Assembly: GCF_028331445.1 (NCBI RefSeq)
Contig: NZ_JAQMHX010000011.1
Span: 1 to 64,000, forward strand
DNA from: Candidatus Phyllobacterium onerii
Lineage (GTDB): Bacteria > Pseudomonadota > Alphaproteobacteria > Rhizobiales > Rhizobiaceae
Reading direction: 5' to 3'
DNA: 64,000 bases
The notes under the pieces are model-generated. The model had not been told where the DNA came from and ran no database searches. It worked only from the letters and a program-made list of their open reading frames with translations. Each line of letters begins with the position of its first letter. Within the stretch, counting starts at the first letter, position 1. Shown one piece after another: positions 43,758 through 57,058 of this stretch. A program made the translations under genes and the position numbers.

Positions 43758-43910
43758 GTTGGTCCTCCCTTGGTTAGCTGGACCGCATAAAATCAGTCCT
43801 GAAGGCGCGGGTAAAGTGCAGATTGGCGCAGTGGAATCCATCTGCGTTGTATCCCCAAAACTATAATGATACTCTCAATTATTATGTTCAATATTGCGCG
43901 CCAATATTCC

Positions 43911-44948
43911 ATGTCCCGTATCGCCGTTCTTCTCGCCTGCCTGATCATCGCGACGCCTACCTGGGCCAACAGAATTATAACCGACCAAGTGGGGAAGCAG
44001 GTAAGCGTACCGGACGTGGTCAATCGGGCAGTGATCCTGCAGCATCAGACACTGAATATAGCAGTACAGCTCGACGCGATGGACAAGGTCGTCGGTGTAC
44101 TCGACGAATGGAAGAAGCAACTCGGCGCAAACTATCTTAGGCTAGCGCCGCAGCTTGCCAATATGCCGATGCCAGGCGGCCTTACCAAGGTGAACATCGA
44201 GGAGTTGCTTAAACTGAAGCCCGACGTCGTGTTTGTCACCAGCTATGCGCCTGCAGATATGATCAGTCAGATCGAAGGTGTCGGCGTTCCCGTTATCGCG
44301 ATATCCTTCCTCGCCGTCCCGCCGCAGGAAGCCTCCAAGCTTAACCCTTCCGTCAAGGACGAACCCGCCGCCTACGACGAAGGTTTTGCTCAAGCGATCC
44401 GCATCATTGCCGACGTTTTCGAGAAAAAGCCACAGGGTGACGAATTGATCGCCTACGCCATGAAGAACTGCAAGCTGGTCGCCGACCGGCTGACCGGTCT
44501 TACTGGCGCCGAGCGCGTGTCGCTTTACATGGCCAATCCCGACCTGACGACATATGGCCATGGCAAATATACCGGCCTGATGATGGCGAAAGCTGGCGGA
44601 CGCAATGTTGCCGATAGCGTCGCGGGTTTCAAGCAGGTGACGATGGAGGACGTACTTGCGTGGAATCCCTCCGTGATCTTCGTGCAGGAGCGCTATCCCG
44701 CCGTTGTCGATGAGATCAGGAAATCCGATGCCTGGCAGACAATCGACGCGGTAAAGAACAACCGCATCTATCTGATGCCCGAATATGCCAAGGCATGGGG
44801 ACATCCCATGCCCGAGGCGCTGGCGCTTGGCGAATTATGGCTGGCGAAGCAGCTTTATCCCGAGCGCTTCAAGGATATCGACATGCAAGCAGAGGCCGAC
44901 GCCTATTATCGCAAGTTCTACCGCACCGACTATCACCCTGCCCAGTGA
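43911..44948 (+). CDS. ABC substrate-binding protein (FecB/BtuF-like, periplasmic_binding_2)
   Basis: A 345-residue exported binding protein with a signal peptide (IAVLLACLIIATPTWA, residues about 4-19). It begins RIITDQVGKQVSVPDVVNRAVI, then NIEELLKLKPDVVFV, GHGKYTGLMMAKAGGRNVAD and an AWGHPMPEALALGELWLAKQLYP end typical of Fe(III)-siderophore, heme or cobalamin helical-backbone receptors. It is followed (4-nt overlap) by a permease broken by frameshifts and a truncated ATPase. The intact receptor could work with transporters elsewhere. The start at 43911 gives the best signal peptide. Confidence 0.87.
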   Translation: MSRIAVLLACLIIATPTWANRIITDQVGKQVSVPDVVNRAVILQHQTLNIAVQLDAMDKVVGVLDEWKKQLGANYLRLAPQLANMPMPGGLTKVNIEELLKLKPDVVFVTSYAPADMISQIEGVGVPVIAISFLAVPPQEASKLNPSVKDEPAAYDEGFAQAIRIIADVFEKKPQGDELIAYAMKNCKLVADRLTGLTGAERVSLYMANPDLTTYGHGKYTGLMMAKAGGRNVADSVAGFKQVTMEDVLAWNPSVIFVQERYPAVVDEIRKSDAWQTIDAVKNNRIYLMPEYAKAWGHPMPEALALGELWLAKQLYPERFKDIDMQAEADAYYRKFYRTDYHPAQ

Positions 44949-45966
44949 CGGGTAAGGCCATCCTGTCAACACGCTCTCCGAGGACGACCCTTTTTGTCCT
45001 GGCCTGTTTACTGTTGCTTGTGGCGATCACCTCGCTCGGCATCGCCCGCTTCGATATTCCAGTAAGGCGCGTCATTGAAGTTCTGCTCGATCCGCTGCTG
45101 CCGGCAACGGTTCTGGTTTCGGCCGTCGAACAGAATGTGATCTTCGCATTCTGCTTGCGATGTTTGCCGGGTCCGGTCTCGCCCTTGCAGGTGCAGCCCT
45201 GCAAGGTGTCTTCCGCAATCCGCTCGTCGGCCCGCAAATCATGGGAGTCTCGTCGGGTGCAGCGTTCGGTGGCACGCTCGCCATCCTCTTGAGCCTGCCG
45301 CGAACAGGCCTGCTTGGTACATCCTTCGTCTTCGGCCTTTTTGCCCTTATCCTGGTTTATGGCCTGAATTCCCTGGTGGCGCGCCGCAACATCCTTGCGC
45401 TTGTTCTCGCCGGCGTCATGATTAGCGGTTTTTTCGGCGCGCTGGTTAGTCTGGTCCAGTATCTTGCCGACACCGAAGACAAGCTCCAACCATAGTGTTC
45501 TGGCTGCTTGGTAGCTTTGCCACCGCAAATCATGAAAAAATCACCCTCATCGCGCCGCCGGTGCTGATCGCAGGCGGCTTGCTATTGGCATTGCGCTGGC
45601 GGATCAATCTGTTGTCCGTCGGTGACGAGGATGCGAGGGCGCTCGGCGTGAAAGTGGAGCGGCTGCGCTGGCTCATCCTGACGCTGGTTGCGTGCATCGT
45701 TGCCGCTCAGGTTGCGGTCAGCGGTATTATCGGCTGGGTCGGATTGGTCGTACCGCACATCGCCCGTATGCTCATTGGTCCGGATCATCGCGTCATGATG
45801 CCCGCCTCGGTTTTGCTCGGTGGACTGTACCTCATCATCATCGACGACGTTGCGCGAACACTCACCGGCACTGAAATCCCGCTTGGCATCTTACCGCATT
45901 GATCGGCACGCCGGTCTTTGCGATCCTGTTGCGCCATAGTCAGGCAGGAGGCGGGAGTCGTGGTTG
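44945..45966 (+). pseudogene. FecCD-family ABC permease broken by three frameshifts
   Basis: Four in-order pieces of one FecCD permease: LFVLACLLLLVAITSLGIARFDIP (44945 frame); after a shift near 45150, RILLAMFAGSGLALAGAALQGVFRNPLVGPQ; after a shift near 45490, IVFWLLGSFATANHEKITL and NLLSVGDEDARALGVKVERLRW, SGIIGWVGLVVPHIARMLIGPDH; after a shift near 45895, ALIGTPVFAILLRHS to TGA 45966. All expected segments, including RNPLVGPQ and GFVGLVVPH-like motifs, are present but unreadable as one protein. Confidence 0.92.
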
Positions 45967-46783: not shown

Positions 46784-47233
46784 ATGCCCCATTCGCGTCC
46801 CCGCGCAACGGCCAGAATTGCCGGAATTCCGCTCCGCGCCGTGTTTGCGCAATTCCCTCTTGTCTGCTTCATCGGCGCATTTTTGTCCGACATTACCTAC
46901 TCGCGAACCGCCGACATGATGTGGGCGGACTTTTCCGCCTGGCTCGTCACCGTCGGCCTGATCATGGGTGGTCTCGGCTTCATAGCAGGACTGATCGATT
47001 TTCTCGGCGACCCCGGCCTCGGCAGTGAGCTGATCGCCCGGATTCATCTCATCGGCAGCGTGATCCTGCTGGTCATGGCAGCGTTCAACATGTTTATTCA
47101 CACCCATCATGCGTGGACCTCGATGATTCCCTTGGGCCTGACCTTGTCGGCGGGCATCGTGGTCGTCGCCTTGGTCACCGAGTGGATGGGCTTCTCGTTG
47201 GTCTTCCGTCTTGGTGTAGGAGTATCAGAATAA
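46784..47233 (+). CDS. DUF2231 membrane protein
   Basis: A 149-residue protein with four predicted helices (QFPLVCFIGAFLSDI, AWLVTVGLIMGGLGFIAGLIDFL, LIARIHLIGSVILLVMAAFNMFIH, SAGIVVVALVTEWMGFSLVF). The conserved VFAQFPLVCFIGAF and GLIDFL blocks are typical of DUF2231. It shares a TAATG stop/start with the sorbosone-dehydrogenase-type gene; this pairing is common in Rhizobiales, where the membrane protein may anchor or serve the dehydrogenase (inference). Confidence 0.85.
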   Translation: MPHSRPRATARIAGIPLRAVFAQFPLVCFIGAFLSDITYSRTADMMWADFSAWLVTVGLIMGGLGFIAGLIDFLGDPGLGSELIARIHLIGSVILLVMAAFNMFIHTHHAWTSMIPLGLTLSAGIVVVALVTEWMGFSLVFRLGVGVSE

Positions 47234-48471
47234 TGTCTTACCATTTTTCATTGATCAGCGCTGGCCGCGCTACGGCACTGACGCTTGTTTTCACCTTGGC
47301 TTCGGCATCCGGTTTCGCTGCGGACACCTTTGACGTCCAGAGCCAGATCGGCCCCAATCCGGTGCTGCCCGAACCGCAGCAATATCTGTACCCGCCCATA
47401 CATCTTGCACCCGTCGTCGGATGGAAGGACGGTGAAAAGCCGACTGTCGCCGCAGGACTCAAGATCGAGGCGCTCGCCACCGAGCTAGAGCACCCAAGGT
47501 CGGTCTATGCGCTTCCGAACGGCGACATCTTCGTTGTCGAATCCCGCGACCCGAAAATAGACAGCGCAAAGCGTCCAAAGGATATAGTCAGGAGCTGGGT
47601 AGAATCGTATGTGACGTCAGATGGCAAAGCAGTAAAGAGCAACCGCATCACCTTGCTGCGCGATACCAATTCCGACGGGAAACCCGAGACGCGTTCCGTT
47701 TTCCTTGACAACCTGTTTTCTCCCTTTGGAGTGGCATTGGTCGGCAGCGATCTTTACGTCGCCAATACTGATGCGATCATGCGCTACCCGTATGATGGCG
47801 GCACGCAGATCACCGCATCCGGCACCGAGCTCACGCCCTTGCCGGGAGGACCCATTGACCACCATTGGACAAAGAGCCTGCTCGCGAGCGCCGACGGTTC
47901 GCTGCTCTATGTCGGGGTTGGCTCCAATAGCAATATCACCGAGAACGGCATGGAGGCCGAGAAGAACCGGGCCGCCATCTGTGAAGTCGACAGGGCGACC
48001 GGTCGCTGGCGGATATTTGCCAGCGGGCTGCGCAATCCGAATGGCCTGAGCTTCGAGCCGCAGACCGGAGAGATAGCTGCCGCTTTTGCCTCCCTTGCGA
48101 TCGCCCCGGCAATGGCGGCGGCTGCGCATGGCAAGGGAGAAACCGTCACTCCAAACTTCCGGCAGGCGATCCCCAACATCCCGGGCAAATCGCTTGTGAC
48201 GGCGGTCGTCGATTATGCGCCGGGCGGATCATCGCCTGCACACACCCATCCGAAGTCGGCATTCATTTTCGCTTACGTCGTCTCCGGAGAAATCGAGTCG
48301 AAGGTGAATGACGAACCGACCAAGGTCTACCGCGCAGGCGAGAGTTGGTCGGAGGCACCGGGCGCAATCCACTCCATCAGCCGGAACGCGAGCAAGACCA
48401 AGCCAGCCAAGCTGCTCGCGGTATTCGTGGTTGACGCCGACGACAAGGAACTCGTTACCCCCATCAAATGA
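47233..48471 (+). CDS. Chimera: sorbosone dehydrogenase-type N-terminus fused to a cupin
   Basis: A 412-residue in-frame product. Residues 1-275 are the first blades of a secreted L-sorbosone/glucose dehydrogenase-type (PQQ-superfamily) beta-propeller: signal peptide (1-28), PRSVYALPNGDIFVVESRD, ITLLRDTNSDGKPE, SPFGVALVGSDLYVAN, HHWTKSLLASADGSLLYVGVGSNSNI and ASGLRNPNGLSFEPQTG. The rest of the propeller is missing. From about residue 276 it becomes a second protein: a leader-like AAAFASLAIAPAMAAAAHGKGE, then a cupin (SSPAHTHPKSAFIFAYVVSGEIESKV with HTH). The join keeps the frame. It looks like a deletion fusion of two exported proteins; whether it is active is unknown. Confidence 0.8.
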   Translation: MSYHFSLISAGRATALTLVFTLASASGFAADTFDVQSQIGPNPVLPEPQQYLYPPIHLAPVVGWKDGEKPTVAAGLKIEALATELEHPRSVYALPNGDIFVVESRDPKIDSAKRPKDIVRSWVESYVTSDGKAVKSNRITLLRDTNSDGKPETRSVFLDNLFSPFGVALVGSDLYVANTDAIMRYPYDGGTQITASGTELTPLPGGPIDHHWTKSLLASADGSLLYVGVGSNSNITENGMEAEKNRAAICEVDRATGRWRIFASGLRNPNGLSFEPQTGEIAAAFASLAIAPAMAAAAHGKGETVTPNFRQAIPNIPGKSLVTAVVDYAPGGSSPAHTHPKSAFIFAYVVSGEIESKVNDEPTKVYRAGESWSEAPGAIHSISRNASKTKPAKLLAVFVVDADDKELVTPIK

Positions 48472-49125: not shown

Positions 49126-49275
49126 TGTAAACTCCCTCAGGTGGCCGGAAACGTCTGAACTCGCAACTTTATTGTCCGTTACGAGACGATGCATGGAAAT
49201 TTACCAAGGCACGTCTGTTTGTTCTTGCGAAAACTATACTTTCGTATAACAAAATGTATCGGGGGACTATAAAGC

Positions 49276-49545
49276 GTGAACAAGCAAACTTTGGGCCCAC
49301 AAGGCCTGACAATCGACTTACCGCCGCTGTTTATAAAATATCTCGATGCTGCAATTGTGCGCCTTCGGATGCACTATCCAGCTTTGGTTTTTTCTGGGAA
49401 TGACCGCGGTATTATCGTTACTGGTGACACCGACATCGATCCCGAGATATTGCGCTCGGCTGTCCTTCACATCGTCTATCGCGAAAAAATCTATGCGGAG
49501 ACGCTTACCATGCGTCAAAGCCTGCTGACGGCCGTTATGCGATGA
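49276..49545 (+). CDS. hxsD: His-Xaa-Ser system protein HxsD
   Basis: An 89-residue protein matching HxsD of the His-Xaa-Ser system: IDLPPLFIKYLDAAIVRLRMHYPALVF, GNDRGIIVTGDTD and ILRSAVLHIVYREKIYAETLTMRQSLLTAV. HxsD has no known enzymatic motif and is presumed to be an accessory or precursor-recognition protein for the two radical-SAM maturases. GTG start with a GGGGGAC site. Its TGA overlaps the hxsB ATG by 4 nt. A small inverted repeat TATAC-N4-GTATA (49235-49248) lies upstream. Confidence 0.85.
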   Translation: MNKQTLGPQGLTIDLPPLFIKYLDAAIVRLRMHYPALVFSGNDRGIIVTGDTDIDPEILRSAVLHIVYREKIYAETLTMRQSLLTAVMR

Positions 49546-50954
49546 ACCAGATCTGGCCCCTGAAATTTCGCTCACTTGACGCTTCGTCGCTGCTGTTTGC
49601 CGACGATGCCGGCGGCTACTTCAGATCGGACAATGAATTCCTGGACCGCTATGCCAGCGATGTTCTCTTCCAGAGTGATCATGTCTTCCTTTCCGACAAT
49701 GGGCACAGTTATTCGACAGAAGATGATCTTGCTTTCACGTCATTTGCGTTCCGATGGACAAGAAGACAATCGGTACAAAAGAAGCTCTCCTACATCATTC
49801 TTGTCCCAACCCTCCGTTGCAATTTGACCTGCACCTATTGTCAGGTTTCTCGCGCCCCGGAGGCAGCCAAGGGCTTTGATTGGAGCGATGAAACACTTGC
49901 CGGCACGATCTCTTTCCTGGACGCACTCGAGACTGCCGACATCAAAATCGAGTTTCAGGGAGGTGAACCCCTGCTTCGGCTCGACTTGCTCGATAAGATA
50001 AGAGCCTTCTGTCGCTCTCGCTTCAAACAATCCCAATTCGTCGTCTGCACCAACCTGCAACGCCTCGGGCCCAACGAGTGGAATTTTCTGGACGCTGACG
50101 ACACATTCGTCAGCACCTCACTCGACGGTGATTTCGCGACGCATCAGCGCCAACGAACCAGTGATGCCGACAAGACCAAGACCTTTTTTGCCAATCTGGA
50201 AGAAGCAGTTCGTCGCCTCGGAAGCAACAAAGTGTCGGCTCTCCCCACCATTGATGTCGACGACCCACCTGACGTCGAAATGCTGCTGGACAATTTTGAA
50301 CACTTCGGCCTTCGCTCGATCTACCTTCGCCCTATCAATCATCACGGCTTTGCCCGCAAGCTGAAACCGCAAGGCGACGTTGCGGCGCGTTGGAACAGTT
50401 TTCACGCACAGTTCATCGAGACCCTGATCAAGAGAAACGCACGCACTGGCAATTTCATGGAGGAGTACTATTTCAGCCAGTGCCTGAAGCGGGTGCTGCG
50501 GTCCGGCGCCGACAATCATGTTGACCTTCGAAATCCCAATTTCTTTGCTTCGGACTATATCGTGGTCGACCATGATGGCGTCTTCTATCCGACGGATGAA
50601 GCAAGGATGCTGTCGCGGATCGGCCGCGTTGATTTATCGGTCGGTAGGGTTGCAACTGGGATTGATCAGGAAAAGGTCGCAATGTTGAACGGTTCATCCC
50701 TCAACAATTTCGATCCAGACTGCATCCATTGCGCCTATCAACCTTTCTGTGGTTCTGACGTCGTCGACGACATATCGCGTTATGGACGAGTTGATATCCC
50801 ACGACACGAGACCTGGTTCTGCCGACGGCAGACATCGATCTTCGACAAGGTGTTTGAACTTATCTATCGCGACGACCCAGCCACGCAAAAATCATTGGTG
50901 CATTGGATCGGGCTTCCAGCGTGGCCGCAAGAGCTGGCGATGGTGCACCGATGA
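49542..50954 (+). CDS. hxsB: His-Xaa-Ser system radical SAM maturase HxsB
   Basis: A 470-residue radical SAM protein. The [4Fe-4S] motif is LRCNLTCTYCQVS (Cys 93, 97, 100, CX3CX2C). EFQGGEPLL is the GGE motif that binds the methionyl group. The C-terminal extension has extra Cys (PDCIHCAYQPFCGSD and WFCRRQ) as in SPASM/twitch-type maturases that hold additional clusters and modify ribosomal peptides. In the HXS system it is predicted to modify HxsA. Coupled by ATGA overlaps to hxsD and hxsC. Confidence 0.9.
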   Translation: MNQIWPLKFRSLDASSLLFADDAGGYFRSDNEFLDRYASDVLFQSDHVFLSDNGHSYSTEDDLAFTSFAFRWTRRQSVQKKLSYIILVPTLRCNLTCTYCQVSRAPEAAKGFDWSDETLAGTISFLDALETADIKIEFQGGEPLLRLDLLDKIRAFCRSRFKQSQFVVCTNLQRLGPNEWNFLDADDTFVSTSLDGDFATHQRQRTSDADKTKTFFANLEEAVRRLGSNKVSALPTIDVDDPPDVEMLLDNFEHFGLRSIYLRPINHHGFARKLKPQGDVAARWNSFHAQFIETLIKRNARTGNFMEEYYFSQCLKRVLRSGADNHVDLRNPNFFASDYIVVDHDGVFYPTDEARMLSRIGRVDLSVGRVATGIDQEKVAMLNGSSLNNFDPDCIHCAYQPFCGSDVVDDISRYGRVDIPRHETWFCRRQTSIFDKVFELIYRDDPATQKSLVHWIGLPAWPQELAMVHR

Positions 50955-52054
50955 TTCCGCTCAGACTGAAGATTGCTACCCAACGCGGCGAGCCTTTCAT
51001 CGTCCGCCTCAATGATGACCGGCATTTTCTCGACGCGACCTATGGCAGGATGACAGCCTTTGACGCTCAGCTCGAGGACGTGACGGCGAACGCAGCGCTA
51101 TACGCGACTAACCACGGACCTCTGCATATTTATGATACTGACCCGACGGAAACCCACGGCGATGTTTTGTTTGTCGTTCCCGACCGGAAGATTGCGCACC
51201 GATTTATCAGAGCCAATTCACGGCACAATACGTTTCTTGTAACGGAGCGGTGCGATCAGCTTTGTGTCATGTGTTCGCAGCCGCCAAAAGAAAATCACAC
51301 CGATATGTTTCCGCATTTCGAGGCGGCCGCACTGTTGACCGAAACGGGCAAGACAATTGGTATCTCCGGCGGTGAGCCCCTGCTTTATAAAGATGAGTTG
51401 TTCGGCCTGCTGGAGCGCGTCCTAACGGCAAGGCCGGATCTGAGATTCCACATCCTGACCAATGGCCAGCACTTTTGCGAAGAAGATGCCGGAGCCCTCT
51501 CGGCTTTGCCGAGGGACAGCATCCTTTGGGGCATACCACTTTATTCTCACAAATCCGCGACGCATGATGAGATCGTTGGCAAGCAAGGCGCCCACGGTCG
51601 CCTAATGCAATCCCTCGCCATCCTTGCCCGAACCGGCTCTGCCATTGAACTGCGAACGGTTGTCATGCAACCTAACGCAGCACAGCTTCCGTCGCTGGCG
51701 CGGTTCATTTCCAGTCACGTGCCATTTATTTCCGTCTGGGCCATCATGCAGCTCGAAAACATCGGTTACGGGCGACAAAACTGGGACCAATTGTTCTTCG
51801 ACAACTCTGTTGATTTTGCGCCGATCGCATCAGCGATGAATCTCGTGCGCGCTCGCGGCATCGAGGCACGGCTTTATAATTTTCCACTTTGCACGGTGCC
51901 TTTCGAATACAGGGAACTGGCACCACAGACAATTTCCGATTGGAAACGCGCATATCCCGACATATGCGAACCCTGTAGCATGAAAACGGAGTGCAGCGGC
52001 TTCTTCGAATGGCATCCGCACAATAAAAGCTATGAGGGAGTTAGGCCGATATGA
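50951..52054 (+). CDS. hxsC: His-Xaa-Ser system radical SAM maturase HxsC
   Basis: A 367-residue second radical SAM enzyme. Cluster motif TERCDQLCVMCSQ (Cys 101, 105, 108, CX3CX2C), SAM motif IGISGGEPLLY, and a C-terminal Cys group CEPCSMKTECSGFF suggest a further cluster. Proposed to act together with HxsB on the peptide encoded by hxsA (family knowledge). Starts inside the hxsB stop and ends inside the hxsA start (ATGA in each case). An in-frame upstream start at 50903 would overlap hxsB by more and is not favoured. Confidence 0.88.
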   Translation: MIPLRLKIATQRGEPFIVRLNDDRHFLDATYGRMTAFDAQLEDVTANAALYATNHGPLHIYDTDPTETHGDVLFVVPDRKIAHRFIRANSRHNTFLVTERCDQLCVMCSQPPKENHTDMFPHFEAAALLTETGKTIGISGGEPLLYKDELFGLLERVLTARPDLRFHILTNGQHFCEEDAGALSALPRDSILWGIPLYSHKSATHDEIVGKQGAHGRLMQSLAILARTGSAIELRTVVMQPNAAQLPSLARFISSHVPFISVWAIMQLENIGYGRQNWDQLFFDNSVDFAPIASAMNLVRARGIEARLYNFPLCTVPFEYRELAPQTISDWKRAYPDICEPCSMKTECSGFFEWHPHNKSYEGVRPI

Positions 52055-52641
52055 AACGAAAGCTGTTCGCAATCCCCTCTTTGCTCGCCGCGGGATTTCT
52101 CCCCTTTCAATCGCAGGCGCTGCCGCTCTTAAAAATTCCAGACGGTCCGCGCGCGGATTCGAAGTCAATTTTCGATGTTTTTCGGCTAACACACCATTTC
52201 ATTCTTGCCGGGCATCGAAGCCATAGTTCGCACAGCTCGCACAGCAGCCATGTCTCTCATCGTTCCTCAACCGGCGGCTATGCCGCACCACGATATGCGG
52301 CGCCGTCGCCGACCTATCTCGATCCTCTTTATAGTGCGCCCGCGCCACGAAGTGTTCCGCCAGCGCCCGACTACACGGCGCCGGCTCAACCGCAATATCC
52401 GGCACTAACACAGCCCGTTGTGCCGCGGACGCTGCGCGGCAACACAGAAAAATTCAAAGAAATCGTTGAGGAAGTCCAGTTCGCCATGATGGCGTTCGGC
52501 TACTACCAAGGTCCGATAGATGGCGTTTTCGGCAATGAATTGCGCGCAAGCCTGCGAAAAATGCAGGAAGACTATGGGCTAAAAGTAACAGGGACAATCA
52601 CACCGCAAACGCTGGATGCGCTCAAGATTGTCGCGCGCTAG
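52051..52641 (+). CDS. hxsA: His-Xaa-Ser repeat protein HxsA (putative modified precursor)
   Basis: A 196-residue exported protein. Signal peptide about residues 1-23 (LFAIPSLLAAGFLPFQSQA). Residues 55-72 carry six consecutive His-Xaa-Ser triplets (HRS HSS HSS HSS HVS HRS). Then a Pro/Tyr/Ala-rich linker (75-125), and a peptidoglycan-binding domain of the PG_binding_1 type (about 130-196, AMMAFGYYQGPIDGVFGNELRASLRKMQ). It is the presumed substrate of HxsB/HxsC, the repeat being modified and the tail tethering it to the cell wall. ATGA overlap with hxsC. Confidence 0.88.
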   Translation: MKRKLFAIPSLLAAGFLPFQSQALPLLKIPDGPRADSKSIFDVFRLTHHFILAGHRSHSSHSSHSSHVSHRSSTGGYAAPRYAAPSPTYLDPLYSAPAPRSVPPAPDYTAPAQPQYPALTQPVVPRTLRGNTEKFKEIVEEVQFAMMAFGYYQGPIDGVFGNELRASLRKMQEDYGLKVTGTITPQTLDALKIVAR

Positions 52642-54758: not shown

Positions 54759-54868
54759 AGCAACGGACGTCGATCGCCCGACGAAATTTTTAGAAAGGGA
54801 CTGCTGCACCAGTAGCTTTGATTTGCAGGCCGACCGACACTACTGCGTGATTTATGGGAGATCGATAC

Positions 54869-56035
54869 ATGCTCAAGGCTGATTGGGAAGACAGAAACGG
54901 TGGCATGGTTCCTCCTAGCGTGTGGAAGGAGTATATCATTATCGGCTTAATTCTATGCATTGTGCTGGGAGGTGGTGTCTCGGCATATGTCGGGTTAGAC
55001 ATGGTCTCCGATAAGTTCAGGCAAATCATGGGCATCAATCCGGCCGCGGTGCCCAAAGATTTTTATTCCCGTCTTGAGTTCGAGCCATTGCCGGGGGCGG
55101 TGGTGAATCGCAATCCAATGGCGGGTCACATCGCTGCTTTGCTGCGTGAGCCGTGCGATTGGAATTCATCCTATGCCTTTGCCGGCGACCTGCAGCAAGC
55201 TGGCTATCCGCGCGAAGCGGCAAAGGTATTTCTGGCATTTTCGGCCAAATGCAGGGCATCGGATGTAGCTCTCTATTCGGCCGCCGATATTCTCTATGGG
55301 TTGAGCGATCTTCCTGCCGCACTAGCGGTGTCGGAGGATCTTTTAGCCATGTCGCCTGATCTGCCTCAATCCTACTACTTGCGAGGTCGGATACTGCACG
55401 ACGCGAAACGCTACAAGGAAGCGATCAATGCCTACGATTCAGTCCTAGGTTTGACCGAGGATCTAGCTTTACTCAACAATGAAGTCTTTCGGCGAATGTC
55501 GTTAACCTATGTTGCACTGGCTGATTATTGCGAAGCAATGACCCCCATCCAGACATGGGTCTCCATCGACCCATCGAAGAACGACACGCCGGCCGCGCAG
55601 GCGATGATTAAGGATTATAGCACCAGAGGAAAATGCGAAGGATCCTATGCGACGGGCAAGGATCGTTTTCCCACGCAAGGCAAGGACGTTATTACAGCCA
55701 AAGTGAGCATCAACGGTGTGTCCGGCATATTCGTCGTCGATACGGGCGCGAGCTTTGTCTCGCTGACACGACGCTTTGCAGAGCGGGCAAAGGTGCCGCT
55801 ATCCGGCGACCTTTCGGTACGCATGCAGTCCGCAAACGGCATTTCCCTCGCCCAACGCAGTTCTGCAAAACAAATACGAATCGGACGCGTCGAGGCGAAG
55901 GACGTTGCGGCAATTGTGCTTGCCGACAGTGACAAGCCACTCGGCGATGGTATCGACGGGCTTTTGGGCCGTTCCTTTTTATCCCGTTTTGATGTGAGTT
56001 TCGGCGCGAGGGATTGGCGTATTGAAAGCAAGTAG
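54869..56035 (+). CDS. TPR protein with C-terminal retropepsin-like aspartic protease
   Basis: A 388-residue membrane-anchored protein. One helix near the N-terminus (YIIIGLILCIVLGGGVSAYVGL, about 21-42), a TPR-like helical region (about 85-250: FAGDLQQAGYPREAAKVFLAF, YYLRGRILHDAKRYKEAINAYDSVLGL), then a retropepsin-like domain with FVVDTGASFVSLTRRFA (catalytic Asp in DTGA) and GIDGLLGRSFLSRFDV (second family block). Similar clan AA proteases are predicted to act in the periplasm. ATG 54869 has a GGGAG site; 54854 is an alternative. Possible peptidase for the modified HxsA (inference). Confidence 0.82.
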   Translation: MLKADWEDRNGGMVPPSVWKEYIIIGLILCIVLGGGVSAYVGLDMVSDKFRQIMGINPAAVPKDFYSRLEFEPLPGAVVNRNPMAGHIAALLREPCDWNSSYAFAGDLQQAGYPREAAKVFLAFSAKCRASDVALYSAADILYGLSDLPAALAVSEDLLAMSPDLPQSYYLRGRILHDAKRYKEAINAYDSVLGLTEDLALLNNEVFRRMSLTYVALADYCEAMTPIQTWVSIDPSKNDTPAAQAMIKDYSTRGKCEGSYATGKDRFPTQGKDVITAKVSINGVSGIFVVDTGASFVSLTRRFAERAKVPLSGDLSVRMQSANGISLAQRSSAKQIRIGRVEAKDVAAIVLADSDKPLGDGIDGLLGRSFLSRFDVSFGARDWRIESK

Positions 56036-56300: not shown

Positions 56301-57058
56301 CGATCAAAATCGCTCCCGTGGCCATTGAATACGCCCGTAACCTTTTCCCGAAAGAACCAATCACCGCCGTCGAAGGTGGGCGCTTCGATACCAGATTCGA
56401 GGGCGCGCTTGTTCCGAAGGGGAACGGCGAGTGGGGCATCTTCTACAATGCGGCCATCACCTCGAAGGGGCGTATCAACTTTTCGCTGGCACACGAATTC
56501 GGACACTACCTGCTCCACCGCCATTTGAGCGGGGATCCGATCTACTGCTCGCGCCGCGACATGTGGGGCTGAGATTCCGACTACGCAAAGATGGAAGCTG
56601 AGGCGAACCGTTTCGCTTCGCTCGTGTTGATGCCGCCAGACGACTTCCGAATTCAGACCGCAGAATTTCGCAAGCCGAAGCTCGTCGATTTCGAACCGTT
56701 GCGTGATCGCTACGAGGTCTCGATGACCGCTGCCGTCCTCAAATGGCTCGGAACGACGCCGAGACGGGCGATGCTCGTCGTCAGCAACAATGGATTCATT
56801 GACTGGGCGCGTGGCAGCGATCCGCTGTTTAAGTCGGGCGTGTTTTTCCGCGCGAAACAGGAGACGATCCCGTTGCCGGCGTTGTCACTGGCCGCCCTTG
56901 GCCCCGCGTGGGGGTTGACTGAAGTCGATCATCCGCCTGGCGTCTGGAACAAGGTCGAAGCGGTACAGGAATCGGTTTTGTTCGATGAGTATCACGACCT
57001 CGCGTTGTCCCTCTTGCTCTTTCCAAATGATCCTCCGAATAAATGGGATCGCGAGTAG
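56297..57058 (+). pseudogene. ImmA/IrrE-type metallopeptidase, 5'-truncated and with in-frame TGA
   Basis: The frame reads APVAIEYARNLFPKEPI, WGIFYNAAITSKGRINFSLAHEFGHYLLH (HEXXH-type zinc site HEFGH), then RRDMWG, an in-frame TGA at 56570-56572, and continues in the same frame with KMEAEANRFASLVLMPPDDFR (third ligand region) and a C-terminal domain ending at 57058. ImmA/IrrE peptidases cleave phage or stress repressors. The 5' end is missing at the HlyD junction, and the in-frame stop interrupts it. Confidence 0.8.

Follow-up and report, generated by a model that had tools for sequence, protein, structure and literature searches.

A tightly coupled four-gene operon, hxsD-hxsB-hxsC-hxsA, in a 64,000-nucleotide stretch of Candidatus Phyllobacterium onerii (contig NZ_JAQMHX010000011.1, positions 1 to 64,000; the whole stretch is called the window below) is almost certainly a His-Xaa-Ser (HXS) system, judging from its sequence. 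Systems of this kind are already known and were reportedly described by Haft and Basu in 2011, a study cited in PMC9062424. The window's copy belongs to a divergent clade of the family, and its two radical S-adenosylmethionine (SAM) enzymes, HxsB and HxsC, very probably modify a tandem array of HXS triplets in the protein HxsA. Taken as a whole, our reading is of a divergent-clade HXS system that would make His-Ser cyclophanes on a peptidoglycan-binding periplasmic protein, and we put its chances a little short of even. The features concerned are the following.

49202-49275, + strand: upstream region of hxsD, presumed promoter, conserved in genome G1429
49276-49545, + strand: hxsD, divergent HxsD of 89 aa with a GTG start (open reading frame [ORF] as read, profile-profile comparison, position)
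49542-50954, + strand: hxsB, radical SAM maturase of 470 aa with one SPASM-type auxiliary cluster site (TIGR03978, invariant cysteines)
50951-52054, + strand: hxsC, second radical SAM maturase, 367 aa, with four invariant C-terminal cysteines (TIGR03977)
52051-52641, + strand: hxsA, putative HXS-repeat substrate of 196 aa (TIGR03979, PF01471, HXS array)
52213-52266, + strand: DNA coding for six HXS triplets, HxsA residues 55-72, read from the sequence

The assignment follows from three proteins that exceed the curated cut-offs of their NCBIfam models, namely HxsB (TIGR03978, 402.7 bits; cut-off 370), HxsC (TIGR03977, 315.3 bits; cut-off 267.9) and HxsA (TIGR03979, 156 bits; cut-off 121.65), together with the recognition of HxsD by profile comparison. 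Like the known systems, the window thus combines these proteins with an HXS array in adjacent genes. An initial annotation of this DNA had proposed the gene order and its coupling by ATGA, and the three overlaps can indeed be read directly at 49542-49545, 50951-50954 and 52051-52054; all four frames are intact, overlaps and radical SAM cysteines included. It had also called the system complete, which is true of the four-gene core and not of the TIGR03982 family and MauG-like genes, neither of which follows hxsA here. The hidden Markov model check that it suggested is passed by HxsB, HxsC and HxsA, while HxsD matches none of the models.

Scores against the HxsB model split the family into one set at 539-639 bits and another, containing the window's protein, at about 360-480 bits, so that the latter comes near the cut-off. 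A maximum-likelihood tree of 46 HxsB rows, some of them near-copies (L060/L084, L054/L083), likewise separated 19 rows from 27 with full support and placed the window among the 27; it carries a warning that L084 and L060, both long branches, join the window's clade. Within that clade the window's HxsB groups with Mesorhizobium and Aminobacter, its top identity being 66% to a row of the same family (L075). The 27 divergent-clade rows are alphaproteobacterial wherever a name, class or nearer rank is given, G420 being known only as a member of the same phylum. The hxsDBCA block recurs in the loci of this clade and its neighbours change.

The model library does not recognize the window's HxsD, which matched no Pfam family and no NCBIfam family even at E 10. 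Using hhalign, we compared a window-clade profile, made from the window protein and the upstream proteins of 10 relatives (two of which, L010 and L011, were missed by phmmer and included by position only), with a profile of eight other-clade rows, two named HxsD in their records and six taken by position. The two profiles aligned over 52 columns (Prob 90.9, E 1.2e-6), and 10 column-shuffled controls reached a Prob of at most 0.9. The matching columns form the C-terminal part of HxsD and are centred on a shared R-x-x-I..E/x-T..R motif. This supports the view that the 89-aa protein is a divergent HxsD; we put the failed match down to limited sensitivity of the model and base the window's place among HXS systems on the remaining features. 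An AlphaFold model with a predicted local distance difference test score (pLDDT) of 91.9 shows a beta-alpha-beta-beta-alpha order (E4-14 H17-33 E37-41 E45-52 H56-88), for which Foldseek found no match in the PDB with E<=0.001. Certain pathways for ribosomally synthesized and post-translationally modified peptides (RiPPs) depend on a RiPP recognition element (RRE), a winged-helix domain that binds the leader. The model gives no support to HxsD as an RRE, its topology differing from a winged helix and the PDB search having produced no match at this threshold. From its position and size, HxsD is presumed to be a substrate carrier or scaffold.

HxsA would seem to have the build of a secreted, wall-binding substrate. 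Residues 55-72 read HRSHSSHSSHSSHVSHRS, that is, six in-phase HXS triplets, each with an aromatic His at position i and Ser at i+2 as in triceptide precursors, and PG_binding_1 (PF01471) covers residues 138-191 (E 1e-15). The array and the peptidoglycan-binding tail described in the initial annotation are both borne out; its signal peptide was judged by eye, from an N-terminal hydrophobic stretch that resembles a Sec signal. Arrays of 4-8 triplets lie near hxsB at all 46 loci of the tree. A scan of ORFs of at least 90 aa gave 44 of them, with 4-7 triplets and S, R, A or Y in most X positions, and a second scan gave the two in shorter ORFs (L046, five triplets; L081, eight). His and Ser are built into the pattern that was searched for, but an alignment of 17 HxsA proteins that is independent of it has H61, S63, H64, S66, H67, S69, H70 and S72 invariant, and in most of these proteins a conserved stretch ending in TLAGH precedes the array. 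The wall-binding tail is not universal: several relatives from the other clade have a short HXS protein of ~85-120 aa that stops at the array or just beyond it.

The composition of HxsA limits what can be done to it. The window's protein contains neither Cys nor Trp, which excludes thioethers and Trp cross-links as its modification; sactionine and ranthionine thioethers and Trp cross-links were rejected for the window on this ground. Across the family, 43 of 44 arrays have no Cys, and 42 of 44 no Trp, within 10 residues. The likely target of modification is His, Ser or the backbone.

Both enzymes carry the CX3CX2C motif and further C-terminal cysteines, as had been noticed from the sequence at the outset. 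In HxsB these are Cys93/97/100 and Cys 394/397/403/427, all seven invariant in 12 aligned HxsB proteins from both clades; in HxsC they are Cys101/105/108 and Cys 314/339/342/348, all seven invariant in 11 divergent-clade HxsC proteins. The four C-terminal cysteines of each would be enough for one extra cluster. We read a single auxiliary cluster in HxsB because it lacks the other cysteines of the SPASM motif. Solved relatives of the HxsB profile include the radical SAM domain of ChlB and anaerobic sulfatase maturases. Only parts of the HxsC model can be relied on: its mean pLDDT is 70, and values fall below 50 at residues 96-116 and 310-367, where the cluster cysteines lie. The best fold match for HxsC in the PDB is the RiPP maturase SkfB (6efn, E 3.7e-8), and the N-terminal region of HxsC is predicted to be mostly beta.

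We propose that HxsD would present HxsA to HxsB and HxsC before export, and that the two enzymes would form 5'-deoxyadenosyl radicals and modify the tandem triplets, after which Sec could export HxsA and the C-terminal domain could anchor it to the peptidoglycan. In each triplet, the imidazole of His(i) would be joined by a C-C bond to the C-beta of Ser(i+2), and the result would be a stiff ladder of imidazole-rich three-residue cyclophanes, able to bind metal or a partner in the cell envelope. Triceptide enzymes offer precedents: HaaB makes C2(His)-Cbeta(Ala) bonds, YhhB C2(His)-Cbeta(Arg) bonds and MscB C4(Phe)-Cbeta(Ser) bonds (PMC11002830). With His(i)-to-C-beta(i+2) and Phe-to-C-beta-Ser bonds thus known from other radical SAM enzymes, cross-linking at the HXS triplets is plausible, and a His-Ser bond within every triplet would extend the known i to i+2 cross-links in the simplest way. 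Common to both are a radical SAM enzyme with an auxiliary cluster site, an aromatic residue at i and a target at i+2, and His and Ser each have precedent, separately. The window differs from triceptides in that its repeats are in tandem and belong to a larger protein that is probably wall-bound, in having two radical SAM enzymes and only one set of auxiliary-cluster cysteines, and in that no HXS product is reported in the open-licence literature consulted. Taken on its own, the His-Ser bond is a tentative proposal that we hold to have rather less than an even chance.

Weak similarity of HxsB to the cyclophane-former models YhhB and FxsB speaks for this chemistry, but several observations weigh against it. 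HxsB scores far below the cut-offs of the cyclophane-former models (YhhB, 47.3 of 445 bits, 1.3e-12; FxsB, 41.2 of 370 bits, 1.1e-10; AmcB, 34.1 of 425 bits) and would not be classed with these maturases by them. Its best model outside the HXS families is that of PapB, a ranthipeptide (thioether) maturase (1.5e-25), although the absence of Cys makes chemistry of the PapB type impossible on the window's HxsA. A Cys is present at two arrays, inside that of L046 and in or beside that of L050. The remaining cysteines of the full SPASM motif are missing from HxsB in 12 of 12 sequences. HxsB also resembles anaerobic sulfatase maturases, matching TIGR03942 at 3.8e-17 (62.4 bits against a cut-off of 349.45) and, as a profile over positions 90-438, the solved anaerobic sulfatase-maturating enzyme (anSME) 4k36 at 6e-11. 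As modelled, HxsD is unlike the RRE that many such systems use, and the need for two radical SAM enzymes is left unaccounted for. Finally, the excerpts of open-licence literature consulted report no HXS product or role, in agreement with the initial annotation, which knew of no established modified product.

The HXS system is patchy and often found on plasmids. In genome draws that overlap one another, 12 of 397 genomes from the order carried HxsB, as did 12 of 394 from the family, 5 of 369 from the class of G659 and 15 of 398 from the phylum, 14 of these last being over the cut-off. One of the eight listed genomes of the window's genus has HxsB and the other seven gave no match. Against plasmid records, the window's HxsB gave 415 matches at E 1e-30, of which 316 are from Klebsiella and many are near-copies; an HxsB of the other clade also matches two phage records. 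An HXS system is described as strain-variable in Vibrio parahaemolyticus (PMC6537148), and one is listed for P. aeruginosa (PMC8446631).

Loss of the operon can be followed in a genus-mate, G1429, where a segment (L123, C17:66399-67127) shares 89% identity over 200 columns with window positions 49202-49400, covering the upstream region and the 5' part of hxsD. The hxsD remnant is followed directly by sequence matching the window from 53880 onward, where the gene after hxsA ends. The remnant implies that the operon was once present in G1429 and was then lost; we considered an empty insertion site and ruled it out by the truncated start of hxsD, which marks a deletion relic. At another relative HXS locus, L038 (G346, C202), a stop lies inside HxsB and HxsC is split.

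In the first set of loci compared, hxsD, hxsB, hxsC and hxsA were the only genes to recur widely. At 5 of the 27 divergent-clade tree loci, and not in the window, hxsA is directly followed by a small membrane protein (TIGR03982-like) and then a CCP_MauG-like protein, always in that order. PF03150 was matched by all four MauG-like proteins tested of the five, and the closest solved sequence to that of L011 is the di-heme enzyme 6e1c. The idea that this pair represents new HXS partners was rejected, as relatives of both proteins already carry HXS names in plasmid records ('TIGR03982 family His-Xaa-Ser system protein' and 'His-Xaa-Ser system-associated MauG-like protein'). A TIGR03982-like profile had matches in 3 of 379 family genomes, all at an HXS locus (three of its five rows come from these same genomes), and none in the window's genome, where the gene directly after hxsA matches no Pfam family and no MauG-like gene follows hxsA. 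At L078 (2715-6241; G1428, C32) the small membrane protein and the CCP_MauG-like gene each occur twice, the second copies being divergent, and genes for VWA, PP2C phosphatase and protein kinase lie beside hxsDBCA in L039, L058, L059, L076 and L079; label counts on the tree compare only 10 labelled rows and say little.

Around the window's operon, a periplasmic binding protein (43866-44948) stands beside a FecCD-type permease that is seemingly split over two ORFs (45160-45902; the second matches FecCD from position 163), and this transporter looks broken. The ORF at 47113-48471 joins a DUF7133/sorbosone-dehydrogenase-like part to a C-terminal cupin part and looks like a deletion fusion. Downstream, a tetratricopeptide repeat protein with a gag-type aspartyl protease domain (54854-56035) has no PADLOC match, and two adjoining ORFs at 56318-57058 appear by eye to be a split ImmA/IrrE-type peptidase (HEFGH motif).

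We also searched the flanks of other HXS loci with PADLOC models at E<=1e-30, taking ORFs of at least 120 aa longest-first and not by a gene caller; some of these overlap hxsD or look spurious. Among 142 flank ORFs at 18 loci (up to 8 nearest per locus), 43 PADLOC families were matched, and 41 among 132 flank ORFs at 20 further loci (up to 7 per locus), several of these being Mesorhizobium loci that are close kin. A control at random sites of these 18 genomes matched one family among 125 ORFs; here 125 of 142 ORFs were used and 17 long ones omitted (not strictly the longest), which may lower this control. A second control, at transposase flanks, covered 16 of these genomes (G525 has no transposase match, G687 was left out) and matched 25 families among 137 ORFs; ORFs of at least 1100 aa were excluded from it and from the 20-locus set and kept in the 18-locus set. 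The window's own flanks are in neither set, and L055 was dropped. Among the matches listed (25 of 43 and 25 of 41 families, members without names), the kinds near HXS include PDC-S65, AbiLi, AbiEi, ThsB, AriA, reverse transcriptase and Qat, those near transposases Zorya, DpdE, DrmD and mad3, and that at random sites mad3.

The main rival to a His-Ser cyclophane is that HxsB and HxsC oxidize the triplet Ser to a formylglycine-like aldehyde, or epimerize or hydroxylate a residue, instead of cross-linking. Anaerobic sulfatase maturases oxidize Ser or Cys; they act on a single residue of a sulfatase and possess the complete SPASM set, where HxsB has four such cysteines. HxsB is like them in its radical SAM core and C-terminal cysteines, and both the matches to TIGR03942 and 4k36 and the place of Ser as fixed third residue of every triplet would suit such a reaction. 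His is equally fixed, however, for which Ser oxidation alone gives no reason, and the TIGR03942 score is far below its cut-off; we regard this rival as unlikely. No more probable, in our estimate, is that HxsA serves chiefly as a wall protein that binds metal or haem, with the His array as ligands, which the radical SAM step would tune or rigidify, and on which a MauG-like di-haem enzyme would act in the periplasm in part of the family. The His-rich array with its peptidoglycan-binding tail, the TIGR03982-like/MauG pair after hxsA, the confinement of TIGR03982-like matches to HXS loci, the di-heme relative of the L011 protein and the FecCD-type ATP-binding cassette transporter upstream in the window all point this way. 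On the other side, TIGR03982-like matches are absent from the window's genome, no Pfam family is matched by the gene after hxsA, the transporter upstream appears to be broken, and clustering shows no recurring metal gene family beside hxsDBCA except that pair. A metal or haem role would in any case be compatible with cyclophanes and not exclude them.

Two further explanations concern function as a whole. The window's locus might be intact-looking but unused, a non-functional product of decay: some genes around it look truncated or fused, G1429 keeps only the 5' remnant of hxsD, no HxsB match occurs in the seven other listed genomes of the genus, and L038 is visibly disrupted. Yet the four frames, overlaps and radical SAM cysteines of the window are intact, and we consider decay very improbable here. 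Alternatively, HXS could be an envelope-level defence or competition system on mobile islands, for which the excess of PADLOC families over random sites, a cyclic-oligonucleotide-based antiphage signalling system (CBASS) directly upstream of HXS on the Aminobacter aminovorans plasmid pAA02 and a QatA match of E 8.8e-205 at L003 may be cited. However, transposase flanks match PADLOC as well, so island location alone may explain much of the signal, and the counts are of families and not of proteins, since one protein can match many models. Moreover, none of the PADLOC models matches HxsA or HxsD, the only ones to match HxsB and HxsC are pVip models, at weak scores (3e-9 to 1.2e-6), and two window neighbours tested gave no match. 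The defence genes near HXS would seem to be island company and are not proof of defence, a role that we find distinctly unlikely. The same low probability attaches to the fullest version of our proposal, in which His-Ser cyclophane ladders on a peptidoglycan-anchored protein would combine with a mobile-island role in envelope defence or as a metal/redox device and with HxsD as a non-RRE carrier.

HXS systems are widespread among plasmid records, yet their chemistry and role were not found in the portions of open-licence literature consulted, and the window's compact four-gene cassette is a good test case for the HXS product. With a substrate that has no Cys or Trp, the chemistry is narrowed to His, Ser or the backbone, which makes a test by co-expression and mass spectrometry straightforward. 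If the triplets are cross-linked, the cyclophane would be a repeated one and would sit in a wall-binding protein instead of a small peptide, and cyclophane ladders on a peptidoglycan-anchored protein would represent a new class of cell-wall protein, one built after translation.

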